IMG/VR virus record: IMGVR_UViG_3300047287_000247
Span: 1-32,781 of that record
Strand: one strand, 5' to 3'
From: a virus
Length of the DNA: 32,781 bases
Made by a program: the position numbers and the translations under genes. Positions 10,813 through 32,781 of the stretch are shown piece after piece. Every line of letters starts with the position of its first letter. Positions within the stretch are counted from its first letter, which is position 1. The notes below the pieces were generated by a model that searched no databases, was not told where the DNA came from, and saw only the letters and a list, made by a program, of their open reading frames with translations.

Positions 10813-13545
10813 ATGGCACGCGAACAACTACCTCTCGGGCAAATCCAGCCGGCCGCGCGCCCGGTATCGAGCTTTGTGCAGCCAGGGCTGATTGAAACGG
10901 CCCGCCCTGCGCAGCCCCAGCAGATCAATCTCTCCAGCGATCGCATCGGCCTGGTGCAGACGGCCGGCTCGCCGAATGTGCAGGGCTACGACCAGGGAGA
11001 GCAGCTGGCCCGGGCGCTGGCGCCGTTCAGCCAGAACCTCACCAAGTTGATGAACTATGGCGTCCAGCTGTACGCCTCCAATGAATACCAGCAGGGCCAG
11101 AACGAAGCGCTGAAGGCCTACACGATTGCCAACCGTCAGTTGATGGTTTCGGCGGACGAGTACGCAGCCGAGAACCGTGACGTCGCCCGGCAGGATCCCG
11201 TTGCCGGCCTGCTGATGGATCGGGCCAACCCGTTCCGCACGGCTGGCCGCCAGAACCAGCTGAGCAAGCTGGCCGCGGTTGAGATGCCGATGATCATGCG
11301 GCGCGAGTTCAACCAGCGCCGTGCCGATCTGGCACTGATGGATCCCGCCGACCCCAAGGTCAATGCGGTCAAGGCCGCCGCCATCGCCCAGGTCAATCAG
11401 AAGTTTGGACTGAGCGAGTTCACCCCCGGGTTCATGGACTACGTCCTGCCGCGGATGAACAACGAATGGGACAAGATCACCCAGGACCAGATCGACGATC
11501 ACAACAAGTATCTGGACGAGACGGTCCACCGGATCGCAGCGGCCACCGTCTATGGCCGCGTGAAGAAGGCCATGGCGGACGGGGTGCCGCTGTCTCAGAT
11601 CGTCGCCAACGAAACCAGCTACCTCGATCAAGAGGCGCGGCGCTTTGGCATCCCTGGCAAGGGCCAGGAGATGAAAGAGAAGGCGATCAAAAACGCCATC
11701 TCTATGGCGATGGATCCGCAGACCGGCGTGATCGACCGAGAGGCCCGCGCCGTGATCGGCTCGATCTTGGTGGGCCCGCCGGACTCCAGCGGCTATCGGC
11801 CCACGGCGCAGCAGATGTACGGGCTGGAGATCCTCGAGGCGACCGACAAGACCGACCAGATGAACTACCGCGCCCGCAAGGCGCAGCAGGAAGTTGTCGG
11901 CCAGCGCTATGCCGACGAGGTCGCCGGGGCAACGCTCGGCCTGCCGGATGGGCCAGAGAAAGCCGCTCGGCTCGATCAGATCAGGGGGCAGTACCAGGGA
12001 CAGCTGCCGCTGTCGGAAATGCTCAAGATCGAACAGAGCACAACCAACGTCACCGAAGACGTCACCAACCGCGGCTTTGCTGACGACGCCGGTGCGTCCT
12101 TTCTTCAGGAAGCCGACGCCTCGTATGGCAGCGATTGGGATCCGGCTCAGTTCGACCGGCTATTCCAGCTCGAGCTGCAGAACGTTGCGCCGGACAAGCG
12201 CGCTCAGTTCTCCGCTCAGTACGCCGAAGTGCGCCGCCGAAAGGAAACGCAAAAGCAGAACATGCCGGACAGCCTCATCAATGGCGCCATCGCGCGCCAG
12301 GTGAAGGCAAATCTCGAGGCCAATTACCCGGACACGGTTACGGCTGCGATTCGCGGTGCGCGCAACATCGAGGAGCTGATGGCTACTGGCGACGCCAATG
12401 CCGCGGCATCAGCAGCTCGGCAGAACACTGCGTTCCGCACCTCGATCTACCGGGCGATCGACGCGAAGCGGGCTGAGCTCAACCGCGACCTCACCCCGGC
12501 CGAGCAGCAGCAGGTGATCGATTTCACTCTGACCGGGTTCCAAAAGAACGCACCGGCCACTTGGAAGACCCTGTTCCCCGGCACCAACGGCCAGCCGAGC
12601 ACGGTGCCGTTTGGAACAACGCGCCCTGGCGCTGATCGCCCGGAGCCTCCCCAGCCTCCCCCAGGCCGCCGTGCGCAGGGAGCGCCCACCTTTGGCGTGG
12701 CCCAGCTGGACACCATTCCCAATCGTGAGCAGCGACTGCAGAACTGGCGCGGCGAGGCCGTGCTCAGCGCATCGGAGACAGCTCGCCTAATCCCTCTGGC
12801 CCTCGGCGGCCAGTCGCTGCCGGCACCGCTGGCCCGTGCGGCAAAGGCCGCCGGCACCAGCCCGCAGCAGTTCCTGCTGCAGCAGGCCGACTTCTACCCC
12901 AACGACATCCGGCTGACGCCAGCGCAGCGCTCGCAACTGGGGAGGAGCGGCCAGCAGGCCAGGGCAACGCAGAGCTACTCGCAGCAGGTGGCCGCAGCGC
13001 AGCGCAGCTCGCAGTCGCCCTTGGCGGCTGCCGGCATGTGGGCTCTGGATGCGCTGACCGGCACGGCCCCTGCCTACGCCGGCTCAATGCAGAGCTTTTC
13101 CGCAATGAGGCAGCCAATGGCTACTGCTTCCGGCCCAGTCAATCTCAACCGCCTTCGCCAGGCGATCTTTGGGAAAGAAAGCGGCGGCAACTTTGGGGCC
13201 GTCAACCCAGACTCCGGCGCGCTTGGCATTGGCCAGGTGATGCCTGAAAACGTCGGGCCCTGGACGCAGAAGCACTACGGCCGCCGGCTGACGCCGAAGC
13301 AATTCCTCGCCAGCAAGGAAGCGCAGCTCGCTGTTGCCAATGGCCAGCTGGGCGAAATCATCCAGCAACAACTCAAGGCTGGATACAAGCCAGACGTCGC
13401 CATTCGCCGCGCTGCATCCATTTGGTACAGCGGGCGTGGCGACCTCTATGACGACGGCCGCCCGCAGTATTCCAACGGCCGCCGGTATCCATCCATCCGG
13501 GAATACACGACCGACATCCTCAATCGCTACCGCAGCGGGAGCTGA
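10813..13545 (+). CDS. Internal virion protein C (gp15-like) with C-terminal lytic transglycosylase domain
   Basis: The protein has 910 residues. Positions about 1-620 are the helical, Gln/Ala/Asp-rich body expected of the gp15 core protein, which forms the periplasmic part of the ejection channel. A Pro-rich linker follows (about 605-630). The last 135 residues form a soluble lytic transglycosylase (SLT/goose-lysozyme) domain: IFGKESGGNFGAVN with catalytic Glu at 789, then GALGIGQVMPENVGPW, and a late AASIWYSGRGD block. This domain would cut peptidoglycan to let the tunnel cross the wall. In T7 the SLT domain is instead at the N-terminus of gp16, so the domain has moved to the preceding gene here. 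Confidence 0.85.
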   Translation: MAREQLPLGQIQPAARPVSSFVQPGLIETARPAQPQQINLSSDRIGLVQTAGSPNVQGYDQGEQLARALAPFSQNLTKLMNYGVQLYASNEYQQGQNEALKAYTIANRQLMVSADEYAAENRDVARQDPVAGLLMDRANPFRTAGRQNQLSKLAAVEMPMIMRREFNQRRADLALMDPADPKVNAVKAAAIAQVNQKFGLSEFTPGFMDYVLPRMNNEWDKITQDQIDDHNKYLDETVHRIAAATVYGRVKKAMADGVPLSQIVANETSYLDQEARRFGIPGKGQEMKEKAIKNAISMAMDPQTGVIDREARAVIGSILVGPPDSSGYRPTAQQMYGLEILEATDKTDQMNYRARKAQQEVVGQRYADEVAGATLGLPDGPEKAARLDQIRGQYQGQLPLSEMLKIEQSTTNVTEDVTNRGFADDAGASFLQEADASYGSDWDPAQFDRLFQLELQNVAPDKRAQFSAQYAEVRRRKETQKQNMPDSLINGAIARQVKANLEANYPDTVTAAIRGARNIEELMATGDANAAASAARQNTAFRTSIYRAIDAKRAELNRDLTPAEQQQVIDFTLTGFQKNAPATWKTLFPGTNGQPSTVPFGTTRPGADRPEPPQPPPGRRAQGAPTFGVAQLDTIPNREQRLQNWRGEAVLSASETARLIPLALGGQSLPAPLARAAKAAGTSPQQFLLQQADFYPNDIRLTPAQRSQLGRSGQQARATQSYSQQVAAAQRSSQSPLAAAGMWALDALTGTAPAYAGSMQSFSAMRQPMATASGPVNLNRLRQAIFGKESGGNFGAVNPDSGALGIGQVMPENVGPWTQKHYGRRLTPKQFLASKEAQLAVANGQLGEIIQQQLKAGYKPDVAIRRAASIWYSGRGDLYDDGRPQYSNGRRYPSIREYTTDILNRYRSGS

Positions 13546-13548
13546 TCC

Positions 13549-16500
13549 ATGCCCATCGAGTACGTCACCGATCCCCGCACCGGGAAAGTTGTTGCCAAGG
13601 GCTCACTGGGCTTTGGTCAGCCTGTTGTCCCTGAGCGCCCCCCGGCCCCTCGCGCGAAACCCAAGCCGAAACCCAAGACAAAGGCCAACAGCTTCTGGGG
13701 CGTCGGGCCTGGCGGCTTCTCGCTGGGCAAGCTCGGCAACGACCTTCGCTACGAGCTCAACCAGCTGGCGACAGACCCGCTGCGCAGCGTTGAGCGCGCG
13801 GCCAACACCACCATGCGCAGCACGGCAGCCGGCATCGCCTTCAGACAGGGCAGCCTTGGCGCCACGGCGGCGACCGCCAATGCCGTTCGCGCTGGCATCG
13901 AATGGAAGCAGCGGGCCGGCGGCCGCAAGCAGACCGACTACACCACCAGCCCAGCGGGCCGCGCCGTCGACCGGGTGGTCGATCACGTCTACCGCTCGGC
14001 AGGGGCAACGCCTCCATCGCAGATGACCCCCGAGGAGAAGGGCGTCGACGACCTGCGCAGCGCACTGACCCTTGGCGTTGCCGGCGGTGTTGGGGTTGGT
14101 GTTGGCTTGAAGGCGCTGAGTGGCGTCCGCTTTGTGGGCCCAGCAGCGCAGAGCCTGGCCAATGCCATGAACCCAGCCCTGGCGCAGTCCTGGCAGGGCG
14201 CTGCATCGCGCCTGGCGTTTGATGCCGCGGTCGGCGAGGCCGTCACCGCGCCGCTGGATTACACCGCCACCGGCGGCAGCGCTGTGAGCCTGGTCGATGC
14301 GGTGCTTGGCACCAAGCTCGACCCGGTCAAGCCAGGCATGGCTTTCCCTGATGCGGCGGCTGCCTCATTCATCCCCAACGTCGCGTTCGGCGTCGGCCTG
14401 GGCGGCGCCTTCATGGGCATCAACCGGGCACGGAAAGCTCGCAGCGTGGTGCAGCAGACCGTTGAGCAACCCCGGGCGGAGCTCGAGGGGGCTGGCCTGG
14501 TCCAAAGCGACCCCGATACCGGCGCGACAGCGTTCACCCCGGAGGCTGTGCAGGGTCAGAGCCTGCGCGAGGCCAATGCCGCCCTGGAGGAGAAGTACGG
14601 CATCAGCGCGCCAGAGCCTGCTGCAGCGCCAGAGCCAGCCATCCCCAGCCAGGCGATGGAGCCCGGCGGCGCCGTCACGGAAGGCGAACTGCCAACTGCT
14701 GATCCCGGCATCGACTTCTGGGCAATCGACTACGACCCCGAGCTACCGGAGGCTGACGTCGCACTCAGTCAGATCAAGAACGCCTCTGACGCCGAGCTGC
14801 TCGACACCGTGCGCAGTGGCGGGCCAGTGCTGCAGGAGCTGGATCAGCGCATGGCCACCCGTCAGCCGCTTCAACCAGACCCCGCGCTGAGCACTGAGCT
14901 GAACGCGGCACCGAGCGACAGCCTTGCCGATCCGATTACGCCCTTCGCGCAACAGTGGCAGCAGCTGGGCAAGCGTGAACCGCAGCAGCTGATTAATGTC
15001 CTCCACCCCGAGGTGAACCCCGGCCTGGCCGCAAGAGCCCAAGCGCTCACAGGCAAGGAGTGGGAGGAGCTCACCCCGTCCGATGCGGTGCAAACGCTGC
15101 AGGCAGCGGCTGATGACGGCTCGATCGTCATTCCCAGCCGCCTGGTGCCCGGCCAGCAAATGATGAAAACGGGCGACCTCAAGATCGACCCCGCCCGCTT
15201 CCAGTTCAAGCAAGGCACTGACGCCCGTGGCGTGCAGCGGGGCTCCTCCCTCGAGGGCGTCGACCGCTGGAACACCGACATGGAGCAGCCGGTCGAGGTC
15301 TGGCAAGACCCGGCCGACGGCGAGTTCTATGTGGTCAACGGCCACAACCGCTTTGCCCTGGCGCAGGCCAAGAACATCCCGACCCTGCCGATCAAGGAAA
15401 TCTTTGCCGAGTCGCCGGAGCAAGCGAAAACGGTTGGAGCCCTAAGCAACATCGCCACCGGCGGCGGCCGGCCAGTCGATGCGGCCTGGTTCATCAAGGG
15501 AGCTGGCATCAGCGAGCCTGGCCAGCTGGAGGCGCTGGGCGTCCCCCTGGCACCCGACTCCGGCAACGGCCTGTCCGGCTTCCAGCTCAGCCGCCTGCCG
15601 GAAGACATCCTGCGCGCGGTCGAAAGCGGCCAGGTCAAGGAGCGTCAAGGCCGGATCATCGGCGGCAGCGGGGCTGATGAGGCTTCGATGCGCGGCGCCT
15701 ACCGCTACCTGGTCGAGAACCCCGGCACCACCGAGGGCCGCCTCAAGGGGATGCTCGAGCTGAGCAAGCAGATGACCGGCGAGGCCCAGGCGACGGGCGA
15801 GCAGACCGACCTGCTGGCCGGCACCGACTGGGATCAAACCTTCAACAAGCAAATGGTGGCGGTCGCCGACCTCGCCGATGAGGTGGCCACCCTGCTGAAG
15901 CGGGAGAAGCGGCTGTTCTCCATGGCGGACGCCAACTCGGCGGCACTGGAGGCCAAGGGCAGCCGAATCGACAAGGCCAGTGCGCAGCAGGTGGCCGAGG
16001 CCAATGCCCGCGCCATCGACTACTTCCAGCGCACCTGGATGGAGACCGGCCCGATCCGCGACCTGCTCAATGAGGGCGGCAATCGCGTGGCGGCCGGCGA
16101 GAACAAAGGCGCGATCGCCAAGCAGATCAAGAACCGCCTGGTGGGCCAGCTCGCTGATCTGATGGGCGAGCAGGCCATCACCCGGGCCGACGTGGTCCAG
16201 GAGGATCTGCTGGCCCAGGCGCCGCAACAGCTCGACGAGCTACTGCCTGATGACCGCCAGGCGATGGAGATGCTGGCCATCCAGCGCGCCATCCAGAACG
16301 GCGAGGTGCGGCCGCCTGAGACGCCAATCCCCGATCTGCCAATGGATTCAGGCGTGGACCTGACGAAGGTGCAGCGCGACCTGGCCGAGAACACCATCAC
16401 CGACGACGTGGTGCAGGCGATGGCGGACGAGCTGGAGCTCCGCGATGCCTATCGCCAACTGGATGACGCGATCGCCCAGGAGACCGAGAAAGCCGCGCGC

Positions 16501-24517: not shown

Positions 24518-24672
24518 TGGCCACTGCCAAACACCACCACGCTCTGCTGTTTCCACGGGGCAGCAGGCCGGTGCCAACCAGGTGCCAGCCATCAAGTCCA
24601 GCTTCGGCGAACTCAGGGCCGAGTGGTGGCAATGGCAGGGAGTAGTCCATCGAAACCTGCCGTCACCTTCTA
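24518..24672 (+). ncRNA. TR-RT spacer, probable 3' part of the DGR RNA
   Basis: This 155-nt stretch between TR and the RT start has no convincing gene. In BPP-1 the RNA downstream of TR is needed to initiate cDNA synthesis and to bind RT-Avd, so a structured RNA is expected here. The overlapping palindromes GGCCGTGGCC (24513-24522) and GTGGCCAC (24517-24524) mark the TR border. The region contains A/C-rich single-strand-like segments around 24527-24541. Confidence 0.55.
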
Positions 24673-25647
24673 ATGGGTAAGAAGTTTCGCAATCTCTACG
24701 AGCAGATTTATCAGTGGGACAACTTGCTGATGGCCTACGCAGAGGCGAGGCGAGGCAAGAGCTACAGCAGCTCGTATCTGCGCTTCAAAGAGTATGCGCT
24801 GGCCAATCTGCGCAACCTGCAATTGCGGCTGGTTGAGGGCAGCTGGATGCCCGATCCGCAACTGCAATTCGACATCATCGACCCCAAGAAGCGCACGATC
24901 TCCTGCCAGAGCTTCCGTGACAGGGTGCTGCACCATGCCCTGATCCAGGTGGCTGGGCCGATCCTGGATGCCGCGATGATGCCTCAGGTATTTGCCTGCA
25001 GGGTTGGCCTGGGGACACATCGCTGCGTCACGCGGATGCAGCAGCTGATGCGGCAAAACCCAGATGCGTGGGTGTTGCACGTGGATTTCAGCAAGTTCTT
25101 CCCGACCATTCCGCAGGATCTACTGCTAAAGCACCTTGGCAAGAAGCTGACCTGCCGGCGCACGTTGCTATTGATCGAGCAGGTGCTGTCGGCGCAGCCT
25201 TCTGGCGTCCCCATTGGGGCCTTGACCAGTCAAACTTTCGCCAACTATTGGGGCGGCAAGCTGGATCGCTTCATCGCCCAGCAGGGCATCGGCGACTTTG
25301 TGCGATACATGGACGATGCGGCGGTCATCGTACCGTCCAAGGTTTATGGCTTGGCGTTGAAAGATCAGATTTGCGAGTTCGTGGCCAACGAGATGGGTCA
25401 GCGGATTGGCAAGTGGAGCCTTGGTCCGGTTGAGCGGGGGATGACTTTCTGCGGATTCCGGATCCGTCGCAAATACAAATTGGCCAAGCGGCAGTCAATG
25501 ATTCGCCAACGCCGCCGCCTGAACGCAATGCTGAAGCACCGGGACTACGAGGGGTGGCGCTGTTCGCAGATTGCATGGATGGGGCACCTGCGCCATGGTG
25601 ATGGACAGAATGGTCTCGTCCACTTAGGGCTCGCCGCACCATGTTGA
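24673..25647 (+). CDS. DGR reverse transcriptase
   Basis: The 324-residue protein is a compact RT with fingers, palm and thumb only, as in DGR enzymes. Motif 3 is VLHVDFSKFF with catalytic D138. Motif 4 is IGALTSQ (181-187), the GxxxSQ form that separates DGR RTs from the GxxxSP form of group II introns and retrons. Motif 5 is YMDD (212-215). The fingers carry DPKKRTISCQSFRDRVLHHA (70-89), and the thumb is basic (FRIRRKYKLAKRQSMIRQRRR). It copies the TR RNA with errors at adenines and, with Avd, feeds the cDNA into VR. No strong Shine-Dalgarno precedes ATG 24673. The stop overlaps the next gene by 7 nt. Confidence 0.97.
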   Translation: MGKKFRNLYEQIYQWDNLLMAYAEARRGKSYSSSYLRFKEYALANLRNLQLRLVEGSWMPDPQLQFDIIDPKKRTISCQSFRDRVLHHALIQVAGPILDAAMMPQVFACRVGLGTHRCVTRMQQLMRQNPDAWVLHVDFSKFFPTIPQDLLLKHLGKKLTCRRTLLLIEQVLSAQPSGVPIGALTSQTFANYWGGKLDRFIAQQGIGDFVRYMDDAAVIVPSKVYGLALKDQICEFVANEMGQRIGKWSLGPVERGMTFCGFRIRRKYKLAKRQSMIRQRRRLNAMLKHRDYEGWRCSQIAWMGHLRHGDGQNGLVHLGLAAPC

Positions 25648-29641: not shown

Positions 29642-29646
29642 GTGGA

Positions 29647-29696
29647 AGCCCCTCCCACCACGAGGGCAGAAGGGGCTCCCGACCAACCACCAGCAC
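29647..29696 (+). repeat. Orphan copy of hairpin plus GACCAACCACCA leader
   Basis: AGCCCCT (29647-29653) pairs with AGGGGCT (29671-29677), and GACCAACCACCAGCAC follows at 29681-29696. This is the same order as the leaders before the small genes at 31197-32451, but no plus-strand gene follows. It lies in the 114-bp gap between two minus-strand genes, where the reverse complement forms the 5' leader of the large terminase. Confidence 0.55.
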
Positions 29697-29755
29697 GTCC
29701 GCAAGAACGAAGCGCTAGCGGGCCTCCCAGCACCACCTGGGTGGGCGACATGACC

Positions 29756-30001
29756 TTAGCCAGCCTCATAAGCCTCGTTCACTTCAGCCGTTGCCGGGTC
29801 ATCGCCCCGGTACTCACCCGCCTTATTGCGTGCGCGCTTCGCGGTCTTCGCCTCTGGGGCAGGGCAAGCACCTCCACAAGGCGATGCCAGCGCCGCTTCA
29901 GCTGCGGCCACCACGTCATCAGGAACATCAGAGCCAAAGCCAAACACACCAAGGCGTTCCCGCTCTGTGTTGGATAAGTACACGGGCGTAGAGCAGTTCA
30001 C
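29756..30001 (-). CDS. Small hypothetical protein upstream of terL, 81 aa (minus strand)
   Basis: The protein begins with STPVYLSNTERERLGVFGFG, has an Ala-rich helix (DVVAAAEAAL), a Cys/Pro-containing turn, a Lys/Arg-rich stretch (KTAKRARNKAG), and ends GEYRGDDPATAEVNEAYEAG. A C-terminal GxxxxDDPSTPxVNEAW-type signature occurs in several small phage proteins I have seen next to packaging genes; its role is unknown to me. It lies 114 bp upstream of the large terminase on the same strand and probably shares its transcript. Confidence 0.6.
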   Translation of the reverse strand: MNCSTPVYLSNTERERLGVFGFGSDVPDDVVAAAEAALASPCGGACPAPEAKTAKRARNKAGEYRGDDPATAEVNEAYEAG

Positions 30002-30025: not shown

Positions 30026-30400
30026 TCACTCCAGTGAATCCGTGAACTGACGGTGGATGTGGCCGCGGCGTTTTGCCCCACCGACAGAGACGTACCAGGG
30101 GTTGAACAGGAAGTAGGTCTCGCCTGTGGTCTGGTCGTAGGCCTTGCTGATCACCAGGTTGTCCCGCAGCCGCTTCAGCGAGTTGGTGACGTCCTGAATC
30201 CGCATCCCCAGCTGCTCTGACAGGCACTTGGCCGTCACCTTCACCCGGCCACTGCGCCAGTGCAGATGAATGGTCAGCCCCCAGAGCACCGCCAGGTCGC
30301 GGGGGAGCAATTTCCGCTCCTTCAACAGCTCCGCGCAAGCCTCTCGACCTTGCCTGTGGAGCATGACGTAATCCTCGCCGTCAGATTCGATAGGGTTCAT
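30026..30400 (-). CDS. Winged-helix RepL/MarR-like DNA-binding protein (minus strand)
   Basis: From ATG 30400 the protein has 124 residues; an in-frame ATG at 30421 would add seven. A clear winged helix-turn-helix is visible: LPRDLAVLWGLTIHLHWRSGRVKV, then the recognition helix region KCLSEQLGMRIQDVTNSLKRL (written here as two helices joined), and a wing with YDQTTGETYFLFNPWYVSVGG. This layout matches RepL-type initiators and MarR-like regulators often found in aquatic phages. It borders the large non-coding region at 30401-31196, so it could bind an origin or operators there. Its place at the head of the minus-strand packaging operon also fits a regulator. Which role applies cannot be decided from sequence. 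Confidence 0.68.
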   Translation of the reverse strand: MNPIESDGEDYVMLHRQGREACAELLKERKLLPRDLAVLWGLTIHLHWRSGRVKVTAKCLSEQLGMRIQDVTNSLKRLRDNLVISKAYDQTTGETYFLFNPWYVSVGGAKRRGHIHRQFTDSLE

Positions 30401-31196
30401 GGAGTCAGTGGCACATAACACTGGCGTGATCCCCTTAATACCGGCTTCAGGATCCGACCCCTGTTGCCGGAAGGGATCTCATGCACTCAAATCATAAAGG
30501 CTTACTACTCGCCCCCGTAGAACTCCGCTCCACCACTGGGCCATTTCACAGTTCCTCTGGATATCTCTACTGGTAGGTAGGAAGAGATCTCCAGAAACAT
30601 CCGGCGCAGCCCACCCACCCCGCCTGCGGACGTCGAGCTTCGCTCTCCTCCAGACGCCTGTCTCCGCTCCACCCCCGACGTCCTCCACCGGGGTGGGCAC
30701 CCTCCCAACATCAACCCGACCCAAACCCCGCTCCACCCCCGTATTGACCCTGGCTAGATCCGGTCCGACAGGGGGGCGATTTTTGGGTCGCGTGATGTGG
30801 TGGGGTGCCCAGTACGTGCGGGCCGCAGCTCCCCCCTGCACCCCCTCTCTTTTCTGCTGGTGGCTGCTGGGCCCTGCGGGCCTGGTTGCAGCCGGTCTGC
30901 AGCCTGCTGGGGCCTGGGCCTGTCGGTGGCTGGGTTCTCTGCGGATTGCACATCCGCTGGGGGCGGCTGATGGGCCTGTCCGGCCTGGTGGGGTGGGGGT
31001 GCTGGTGCCGCTGGGCCTGCGCCGGTAGGCTGGCGCCACGGGCAACTGTGAAGAGTTGTTACAGATTGGCAGGTACGCCCACCGCCACCCTCTCCACCCC
31101 CGTGGAGATCAAGCAGGATGGCAGCAGGACCGCTACGGGGCCGCAGCGCACTGCGCCGGGCCGGCGGTCTGACCAACCACCACCGCACCTAGACCG
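30401..31196. other. Long non-coding region, possible origin/regulatory region
   Basis: About 800 bp separate the divergent minus-strand packaging operon from the plus-strand small genes. Open frames on both strands here have Pro/Cys/Trp-rich translations and no start signals, so I see no gene. The element CTCCACCCCCG occurs at 30667-30677, 30731-30741 and 31092-31102; the first two share the longer CGCTCCACCCCCG. The segment 30850-31030 is rich in G and T on the plus strand with several G-runs. A TATGAT-like box lies on the minus strand at 30496-30491. This layout suits an origin or a divergent promoter region, but no single element proves it. Confidence 0.45.
31165..31196 (+). promoter_or_regulatory. 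Leader copy A before the gene at 31197
   Basis: GACCAACCACCACC begins at 31171 and the ATG follows at 31197. CGGTCT (31165-31170) and AGACCG (31191-31196) form a perfect 6-bp stem that would put the whole leader in a 20-nt loop and end right before the start codon. This differs from the other copies, where the hairpin precedes the leader. No purine-rich Shine-Dalgarno is present. Confidence 0.6.
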
Positions 31197-31388
31197 ATGA
31201 ATACGTACGAGGAGTCGGTGCTGTCCTACGCGGACGGCTACGGCAACCTGACCCGCGCCGATGCAGTGCAACTGCTGGGCGAGCACGGGTTCACCTTGGG
31301 CGACGTCTACGCGGACGACCACGGGGTGAGCGCTGTCCACCTGGACGAGCGCAACGCCGAGGCGCTGCTGGCGTGGCTGGGGTACTGA
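31197..31388 (+). CDS. Small acidic hypothetical protein, 63 aa
   Basis: The gene starts directly after leader A. The product is acidic and soluble, with MNTYEESVLSYADGYGN at the N-terminus, the helix RADAVQLLGEHGFTLGDVY, and DERNAEALLAWLGY at the end. I do not recognise it. Gene size and position at the head of a rightward series suggest an early host-takeover type gene. Its stop overlaps the next ATG by one base (TGATG). Confidence 0.62.
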   Translation: MNTYEESVLSYADGYGNLTRADAVQLLGEHGFTLGDVYADDHGVSAVHLDERNAEALLAWLGY

Positions 31389-31537
31389 TGCGCGGCGCAT
31401 CACTGGCGGCCTATGGGCTGGCCCTGGGGCTGGCCTTGGGCTGGCTGCACAAGCCGCTGGCGCCGGGTGCGCCTGACCGGCCCGAGCTGGGCCTGATCCG
31501 CGGGCGTGCGATGCCCGCTGAATGGCCCGGCCCTTGA
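31388..31537 (+). CDS. Tiny one-span membrane protein, 49 aa
   Basis: ATG 31388 overlaps the previous TGA by one base, giving a 49-residue protein. Its first half is hydrophobic (SLAAYGLALGLALGWL, 5-20), followed by a Pro-rich polar tail ending in EWPGP. The coupled start and the presence of a hairpin and leader right after its stop support a real gene. Function unknown; a short membrane peptide of the early region is the likely class. Confidence 0.5.
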   Translation: MRGASLAAYGLALGLALGWLHKPLAPGAPDRPELGLIRGRAMPAEWPGP

Positions 31538-31546
31538 CCCTCTCCC

Positions 31547-31607
31547 GGAGCTGCTGTGGCGGCTCCCTGAGGGGCTCACCCCTCGACCAACCACCACCAC
31601 CCACCCC
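31547..31607 (+). promoter_or_regulatory. Leader copy B: two hairpins plus GACCAACCACC leader
   Basis: The first hairpin spans 31547-31566 (8-bp stem with one G-U pair, loop TGTG). The second is GAGGGG (31569-31574), CTCA, CCCCTC (31579-31584). GACCAACCACCACC starts at the next base (31585), and ATG is at 31608. No Shine-Dalgarno is present. The CTCA loop recurs in copy D with a different but still perfect stem. Confidence 0.7.
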
Positions 31608-31817
31608 ATGAACGCCTTCTATCTGACCCTGGCCGACTACGAGAGCCGCCACAACAGCTGGGCATCGGCCGCAAGCCACTACTGCCAGGACGGCTACCCC
31701 GTCCACTACGAGGGCATCGACTGGCAACAGGCCTGCCGTGATCACGGGTTTTACGGCGCCATCCAAAAAGTGAAAGAGGCCTACCGCGCTCGCCAGTACA
31801 AGCGGCTGATGGCCTGA
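31608..31817 (+). CDS. Small hypothetical protein, 69 aa
   Basis: The start is the ATG that ends leader B; upstream codons in this frame run through the hairpins and are rejected. The protein is rich in Tyr, His and Trp (MNAFYLTLADYESRHNSWA, HYCQDGYPVHYEGIDWQQA) with a basic end (KVKEAYRARQYKRLMA). No membrane segment is seen and I do not recognise a family. It is one of the leader-controlled small genes in this module. Confidence 0.65.
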   Translation: MNAFYLTLADYESRHNSWASAASHYCQDGYPVHYEGIDWQQACRDHGFYGAIQKVKEAYRARQYKRLMA

Positions 31818-31820
31818 CGA

Positions 31821-31896
31821 CAGCACCGAGGCCCTGGGCCCTGCCCTCGGCCTCCCTGCTGCCCTCCAAGCAGCGACCAACCACCACCACCCACCC
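31821..31896 (+). promoter_or_regulatory. Leader copy C: hairpins plus GACCAACCACC leader
   Basis: The block opens with CAGCACCGAG (31821-31830). CCGAG (31826-31830) pairs with CTCGG (31846-31850). A second stem is GCTGC/GCAGC, the latter at 31870-31874, directly followed by GACCAACCACCACC at 31875 and ATG at 31897. The whole block aligns with copy D over about 80 bp. Confidence 0.7.
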
Positions 31897-32367
31897 ATGA
31901 ACACCACCGAACTGAGCCACGCCGAACAGAACGCCCAGGGGCACGCGGAGGCCATCGCCGCGGCCTACGAGGCCCATCAGTTCTGCGCGGAAGAAGGAGA
32001 AGGCCGCCACCTCACCCGTGAGGCCAAGGCGTGCCTGAAGCAGCACGGCTACGACGGCACCAACCACGACGACGTAGCGGAGGCAATCGAGGAGGCCATG
32101 CGGGGCGAAATGCTCTGCGTCGGCGTCCGTTGCAGCGAGTGGCAGGACCCCTGCGCATCGAGCTCACTCGAGCCCGATGAGTTTCAGATCCTGCTCACCA
32201 CCGGCGGCCCTGCCCTGCGCATCGTCGGCGAGCTGAACCACTACCTCGAGCCCTGCAGCGCTCGCCTCCAACACCAGGACTGGGGCACGCCCTGGACCCA
32301 GTGGTTCCACATCGAGGAGGAGGCCCTGCTCTGGCTTGCTGCCCTGCCCTGGTACGGCGAGGCCTGA
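31897..32367 (+). CDS. Conserved-looking hypothetical protein, 156 aa
   Basis: The protein has a helical N-terminal half (about 1-70, with HAEAIAAAYEAHQF and LKQHGYDGTNHDDVAEAIEE). A beta-rich second half reads EFQILLTTGGPALRIVGELN, then RLQHQDWGTPWTQWF and EEEALLWLAALPWYG. I recall the second half (ILLTTGGP, QDWGTPW) in small proteins of plasmids and phages, without a known role. It may be an early regulatory or anti-host factor, which is a guess from gene position. It starts directly after leader C. Confidence 0.68.
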   Translation: MNTTELSHAEQNAQGHAEAIAAAYEAHQFCAEEGEGRHLTREAKACLKQHGYDGTNHDDVAEAIEEAMRGEMLCVGVRCSEWQDPCASSSLEPDEFQILLTTGGPALRIVGELNHYLEPCSARLQHQDWGTPWTQWFHIEEEALLWLAALPWYGEA

Positions 32368-32370
32368 TTT

Positions 32371-32450
32371 CAGCACCGAGCCCCTGGGCCCCTGGCCCTC
32401 GGGTTCCCTGCTGGGCTCACCCAGCGACCAACCACCAACACACCCGCCCC
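32371..32450 (+). promoter_or_regulatory. Leader copy D: hairpins plus GACCAACCACC leader
   Basis: CAGCACCGAG (32371-32380) opens the block. CCGAG (32376-32380) pairs with CTCGG (32398-32402). GCTGGG (32410-32415), CTCA and CCCAGC (32420-32425) form the second hairpin. GACCAACCACCA starts at 32426 and ATG at 32451. Confidence 0.7.
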
Positions 32451-32627
32451 ATGACACCGAACCCAGATGAGCTGGCCATGCGCCGCTCGCAACGGATGAC
32501 GATCACCGTCCCCTATGGCGTGATCAGCCGCCTCGAGCGCCGTGCGCTGGAGGAAGGCCGCAGCCTCTCCAACCTCAGCGCCTACCTGCTCGAGCGCGCC
32601 ATCGAAAACCAGGAGACGCGCAAATGA
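32451..32627 (+). CDS. Ribbon-helix-helix (CopG/Arc-like) DNA-binding protein, 58 aa
   Basis: The protein fits the RHH fold. A beta strand RMTITVPYGVI (15-25) is followed by helix SRLERRALEEGRS (26-38), a turn LSN, and helix LSAYLLERAIENQ (42-54). Such proteins bind operators as dimers and often control early phage or plasmid genes. The start follows leader D; the frame upstream is not coding. The stop overlaps the next ATG (ATGA), so it is coupled to a membrane protein. Confidence 0.78.
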   Translation: MTPNPDELAMRRSQRMTITVPYGVISRLERRALEEGRSLSNLSAYLLERAIENQETRK

Positions 32628-32781
32628 ATCGCAATGATCCCGCCCTGGCTGCCCTGGTGCTGCTGGGGCTGGCCCTCGAGCTGGCAGCCGTCGCACTCCG
32701 GCCGCTGCTGGCTCATGCCCTGGCCCTGCTGCTCACCGCCGCCGTCTGGAGGCCAACCGCAGCAATGGAAACAGCCGCGGC
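32624..32781 (+). CDS. Membrane protein, partial at window end
   Basis: ATG 32624 overlaps the RHH gene stop in an ATGA junction. The visible 52 codons encode an Ala/Leu-rich protein with two hydrophobic stretches (PALAALVLLGLALELAAVAL and LLAHALALLLTAAVW) separated by an Arg-Pro turn, consistent with a two-span hairpin. The gene runs off the window and the product is not recognised. Confidence 0.55.
   Translation, partial: MNRNDPALAALVLLGLALELAAVALRPLLAHALALLLTAAVWRPTAAMETAA

Follow-up and report, generated by a model that had tools for sequence, protein, structure and literature searches.

Introduction

Attenuators of the trp type, which are controlled by ribosomes, contain segments whose pairings are mutually exclusive, together with a stop codon so positioned that the first of them is masked. 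In phage T7, cleavage by RNase III at the R1.1 site both matures and protects the mRNA, and a 12-bp stem is enough for the cut (PMC8708148); cyanobacteria possess RNase III as well as the 5'-3' nuclease RNase J (PMC10989914). ACA- and CA-rich sequences boost translation, an ACAA repeat doing so even in the absence of a Shine-Dalgarno (SD) sequence, and the GU-rich RNA GcvB silences CA-rich enhancers (PMC3879156).

The stretch of DNA analysed here (the window, 32,781 nucleotides) is a 32.8-kb virus record of a T7-like freshwater cyanophage, with the podovirus hallmarks of a head-tail connector, a gp10-like capsid, a T7-type terminase and a tail fibre. Among annotated relatives Synechococcus phage S-SRP02 is the nearest; its early region extends from position 10903 up to the RNA polymerase gene. 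The repeats described below lie at the beginning of the window's early region, and the record stops short of the polymerase gene. For comparison, 80 loci with related terminases were fetched, the majority of them metagenomic contigs. Near its tail genes the window also carries a diversity-generating retroelement, in which positions 24541-24667 (+) match the Rfam Phage_DGR RNA (71.5 bits) and a reverse transcriptase (24673-25644, +; PHROG E 8.5e-86) follows directly. We find that the early genes of this phage family of aquatic cyanobacteria are joined by a previously uncatalogued RNA element.

Results

The junctions share a common plan, UGA(stop)-N-a-YY-hairpin1-YY-b-YUCA-a'-A/C leader-AUG, in which segment b has two possible partners. 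Pairing with a closes a long hairpin, irregular and about 16-18 pairs in length, which extends over the stop codon, and pairing with a' forms a short hairpin that abuts the leader. The short hairpin is the one reported by the first-pass annotation, and its three stems are found as described. Copy A (31171) lacks the two-hairpin element. That annotation missed this absence, the second hairpin upstream, the link to the stop codon, and segment a, which lies right after the upstream stop codon and also complements the 5' arm of the short hairpin. Scores in the following list are those of covariance model R1, described below.

31535..31578, + strand: element B, long-hairpin form (R1 49.3 bits, E 1.9e-11; fold z -3.0)
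31569..31584, + strand: alternative hairpin B (b:a'), GAGGGG-CTCA-CCCCTC
31608..31817, + strand: 69-aa ORF behind leader B, without a family match; element C begins at its UGA
31815..31867, + strand: element C, long-hairpin form, UGA at 31815 (R1 48.0 bits, E 4.8e-11; fold z -3.25)
31858..31874, + strand: alternative hairpin C, GCTGC-CCTCCAA-GCAGC
31897..32367, + strand: 156-aa ORF after leader C, found in relative L009 behind a B-type element
32365..32419, + strand: element D, long-hairpin form, UGA at 32365 (R1 47.8 bits, E 5.3e-11; fold z -3.55)
32410..32425, + strand: alternative hairpin D, GCTGGG-CTCA-CCCAGC
32451..32627, + strand: gene D, 58-aa ribbon-helix-helix (RHH) protein (Pfam RHH_5, E 7.8e-12)

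Element B, for example, reads UGA, a (CCTCTC), CC, hairpin1, CT, b (GAGGGG) and CUCA.

A covariance model built from the copies, the check that the first-pass annotation had proposed, recovers the element in relatives. Model R1 gave 97 matches at E<1e-4 (E-values are rough, from a short calibration) in 0.96 Mb, of which 96 are on the early strand and the remaining one, in L066, is a partial fit of 26 nt; the matches represent 85 distinct copies. Exactly three fall in the window, at 31535, 31815 and 32365. In 75 of the 85 distinct copies the in-frame UGA of the upstream ORF is the exact start of the element, and in the other 10 the stop codon is displaced. The repeat had been suggested to be phage-wide; it is family-wide, yet restricted to the early region, with none in late genes. 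The published marine genomes AP013548 and AP013547 also carry it, and it had gone unannotated in published marine genomes (Stopalavirus, Nohivirus). No curated Rfam covariance model matches the early-region elements, and no tRNAs or known RNAs were found in the region. Searching 11 Synechococcus/Cyanobium genomes with R1 gave strong matches solely on a 44.8-kb contig of one Cyanobium metagenome-assembled genome (MAG), which carries a relative of the window phage (TerL 57%, integrase 56%, RNA polymerase 40%). This divergent relative (L197, from that contig, C17 of genome G026) has two copies of the element.

Covariation of both pairings lends strong support to the earlier proposal of compensatory change in a conserved RNA structure. 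Across 57 sequences, compensatory change is seen at 12 of the 14 pairs of the long hairpin (a:b plus hairpin1). Its alignment cells are paired in 90.7% of cases (93.6% counting the stop-codon pairs), compared with 69.6% after shuffling, and its covariation is 0.546, compared with 0.178 in shuffled and at most 0.162 in slid controls; none of 500 shuffles matched the observed a:b pairing or covariation. With shared ancestry left in the permutation tests, the a:b score is 15.6 for an element's own arms and 12.9 ± 0.34 for permuted arms, and b:a' reaches at least 5 bp in 82 of 85 copies, against a mean of 21.3 (maximum 33) when b arms are permuted. Because the first alignment was selected on b:a' hairpins, the count in copies outside the training set weighs most, and there the pairing is present in 19 of 20, against a permuted mean of 4.2 (maximum 9). 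RNAalifold, unprompted, predicts base pairs between the stop codon's GA and the UC in the CTCA loop that had been called conserved. The G3-C60 pair is kept in 57/57 sequences and A4-U59 in 56/57, with one G-U in addition, and both of these inner pairs persist where UGA has given way to CGA, AGA or CGG as the first triplet. The loop is indeed constant, but its bases are more aptly seen as those that pair with the stop codon, which explains both the constancy of the loop and its constant distance from that codon. The junction hairpins are equally stable on either strand, so that G-U asymmetry gives no proof of RNA in their case. We hold the structural description of the junction element with high confidence.

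Folding predictions indicate that the two pairings could interchange. In free RNA the a:b form is predicted in 71 of 85 copies, and when the first 12 nt are blocked, mimicking a ribosome over the stop codon, b:a' is predicted in 83 of 85. The two states are near-equal in energy in window copies B (-26.7/-26.4) and C (-27.7/-27.5); in D the minimum free energy favours b:a', and the a:b form is the weaker one.

The leader that follows the element consists of A and C only. The window contains five exact copies of the 12-mer GACCAACCACCA on the + strand, where 0.01 would be expected, and none on the - strand. Four of these, at 31171, 31585, 31875 and 32426, were known from the first-pass annotation; they lie about 10-27 nt ahead of an ATG and, as stated there, lack an SD sequence. 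The fifth, at 29681 (+), was overlooked and stands in front of the minus-strand terminase gene.

31171..31184, + strand: A/C leader A, ahead of the first early gene (ATG 31197), without the two-hairpin element
31585..31607, + strand: A/C leader B, ahead of ATG 31608
31875..31896, + strand: A/C leader C, ahead of ATG 31897
32426..32445, + strand: A/C leader D, ahead of ATG 32451

Each early region repeats an A/C-only leader of its own lineage (GACCAACCACC, CACCAACCACCAACC, CCCAACAACCACCACC, CACACCACACC or CACCAACCAACC). The equivalents in S-SRP02 are at 10868, 11667, 12079 and 13958, and the genes after them at 10903, 11692 and 12103, with the integrase at 13986. An A/C run of at least 9 follows the element in 74 of 85 distinct copies, and most copies without one have a GAGGA-type SD instead. 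Several SD-type copies precede an RHH protein gene that aligns as homologous to window gene D, which itself has an A/C leader; in the S-SRP02 group, the aligned orthologues of gene D have an SD leader rather than an A/C leader. This exchange at orthologous RHH genes, which makes leader type and hairpin element separable, supports the earlier suggestion of a translation leader, and from the sequences we infer that the A/C leader serves as a ribosome site in place of the SD. It would be a natural SD-free leader exchangeable with SD leaders at the same gene. A host-wide translation signal was considered and rejected, as A/C16-ATG occurs 0-7 times per 2-3.6 Mb in the 11 Synechococcus/Cyanobium genomes, near control counts. 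The strand complementary to the leader fits a two-quartet G-quadruplex, (GG N1-3)x4, as any CC-rich A/C tract does. Viral contigs scanned for CCCAACAACCACCACCACC gave mainly unrelated coding matches, plus family members; one distant phage (L176, terminase 40% identical) has CCCAACAACCACCACCACC shortly ahead of an ATG and no R1 match. As a separate observation, a conserved GGAGAGAACGTGCTAGGACGTGG-like sequence precedes the first early gene in L094 (10830-10870), with equivalents in L047, L067, L068 and L080; a hairpin and then the A/C leader follow it, and it is perhaps an early promoter of host type.

The fifth copy belongs, on the opposite strand, to the message of the terminase.

29681..29691, - strand: fifth copy, read as GGUGGUUGGUC; within the 5' UTR of the terminase it forms an unpaired G/U "anti-leader"
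29643..29680, - strand: hairpin with a 16-bp stem and GGGAGGGG in its 3' arm, just before the terminase ATG (29641, minus)

The anti-leader GGUGGUUGGUC is the exact antisense of the early leaders and lies directly 5' of the hairpin. In 35/35 relatives this hairpin is stronger in the terminase-sense than in the antisense RNA, by 10.4 kcal/mol on average, and this bias identifies it as a structure that belongs to the terminase mRNA. The G/U tract complements the leaders of its own phage over 10.6 nt and those of other lineages over 8.5 ± 0.26 nt, phylogeny uncorrected. Opening of the terminase hairpin by the early leaders through a toehold was rejected on inspection, the complementarity stopping short of the stem. 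A further conserved hairpin was noted between the small upstream gene and the terminase (window 29692-29760, -; relatives L006-L085), with a near-constant GUGGUG/GUGGUU loop and a covarying stem (CCCAG/CUGGG, CAGGG/CCCUG, CGG/CCG); it is possibly a second anti-leader seed.

Discussion

The mechanism that we favour, tentatively, combines intercistronic processing with refolding. Ribosomes finishing the upstream gene would cover a, so that b:a' forms; once they are gone, the long hairpin would form and, in the manner of T7 early mRNA, might be cut by a double-strand nuclease of the host RNase III type. Hairpin1 would then remain at the 3' end of the upstream mRNA, and the downstream mRNA would refold b:a' into a protective 5'-terminal hairpin, directly after which the unstructured A/C leader would recruit ribosomes without an SD. 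We infer cleavage, protection and regulation from the T7 R1.1 precedent and from the fact that cyanobacteria have both RNase III and RNase J. Phages of the S-SRP02 group have a hairpin and A/C leader before the first early gene as well, near the presumed transcript start, so all early mRNAs would share one type of 5' end. The shared leaders also serve as seams for gene exchange. Two points count against processing: the stem, with its 2x2 mismatch, is short for RNase III, and a model of processing only does not call for a fixed distance to the stop codon.

A rival mechanism is a ribosome-sensing switch without cleavage. Here a ribosome at the stop codon would mask a and let b:a' form, and the two states would set the translation or stability of the next gene, by translational coupling or attenuation. 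We regard this as possible but somewhat doubtful. The placing of the UGA at exactly position 1 of the element in 75/85 copies, the invariant YUCA that pairs with it, the near-equal energies in B and C and the change of fold in 83/85 copies on blocking 12 nt all agree with it, whereas neither state pairs the A/C leader, which leaves the switch no evident target, and the stop is displaced in 10/85 copies.

Genes have moved between these junctions: three different genes follow element B in the window, L009 and L088, the L009 gene sharing 95% identity with the one after C in the window, and S-SRP02 has a tyrosine recombinase within the region. Hairpins kept mainly as shuffling seams, as PeSL-like or integron-like linkers with no role in expression, are nevertheless an improbable explanation. 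The window and L009 are 93% identical as far as the leader of element B and then diverge, and what follows B in L088 matches what follows C in L006 (94%); since identity breaks off there, the exchange points are at the leader and not within the hairpin. The integron core GTTRRRY occurs in 0/85 copies, as does the GTTRRRY/RYYYAAC core pair, the S-SRP02 integrase scores 26 bits against an integron-integrase (IntI) cut-off of 265, and recombination has no need of covariation among three arms linked to a stop codon.

Tandem intrinsic terminators or insulators, for host or phage RNA polymerase, are hardly probable either. The hairpins are tandem, GC-rich and intergenic, and 28/85 copies have a C(UNCG)G loop, but the longest T-run after either hairpin is 3 among the 85 copies, so that the "terminator-leader unit" once proposed finds no support. 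No terminator or promoter consensus was found, there is no space for a promoter between hairpin and ATG, and S-SRP02 has a hairpin followed by TTTTT after its capsid gene. The transcription units named earlier are putative, with no sigma-70-type promoter (by consensus scan) or T-tract terminator detected in 30400-32781. Promoters of a phage single-subunit RNA polymerase are extremely improbable: GGGCTCACCC loosely resembles the Syn5 promoter, ATTGGGCACCCGTAA (PMC3950665), superficially and in copies B and D only, but it is the pairing alone, not the sequence, that is conserved between copies, and every copy precedes the RNA polymerase gene, within the early region, and none is in the late genes.

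Beyond the processing-plus-refolding mechanism, the terminase anti-leader is possibly a GcvB-like regulator, if the analogy applies. A phage-wide RNA circuit, in which every early gene has the A/C leader of its lineage and these leaders have co-evolved with one exposed terminase G/U anti-leader, beside a hairpin hiding the terminase ribosome site, is in our estimation unlikely. Were it true, pairing of leader and anti-leader would switch off early translation or delay the terminase until early mRNA is gone, and the stop-codon-anchored refolding elements would keep the early messages apart. Early and packaging genes may be connected through antisense pairing. Independently of mechanism, the junction elements define an RNA family that is well supported and has two mutually exclusive folds; cyanophages from many metagenomes carry several copies per genome. 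The element is also a stop-codon-anchored candidate switch open to direct testing.

Among known systems, trp-type attenuators likewise combine three segments of mutually exclusive pairing with a stop codon positioned to mask the first, whereas the junction element has no terminator and no leader peptide and is repeated several times per genome. Promoter-early-stem-loops (PeSLs) of T4-like phages (cited in PMC4503421) are also regulatory hairpins repeated between shuffled small genes, as are the stem-loops here; by contrast, our consensus scan found no early promoter within the unit, and the present elements have no T-tract, possess two exclusive pairings and occur in T7-like phages. GcvB and the CA-rich/ACA enhancers (PMC3879156) resemble our phages in having CA-rich sequences at start sites and one unpaired GU-rich segment complementary to many of them, which in our phages is in the terminase 5' UTR and would pair with them only putatively; here the leader replaces the SD rather than assisting it, and the anti-leader, whose regulatory role is putative, lies in a phage mRNA and not in an sRNA. 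The RNase III sites of T7 early mRNA, such as R1.1, are mismatched irregular hairpins between early genes, upstream of the next gene, and the window too has hairpins with a mismatched double-stranded stem between the early genes of a T7-like phage. In contrast to the T7 sites, the putatively cleaved hairpin here begins at the stop codon, has a third arm into which it can refold and is followed by an A/C leader.
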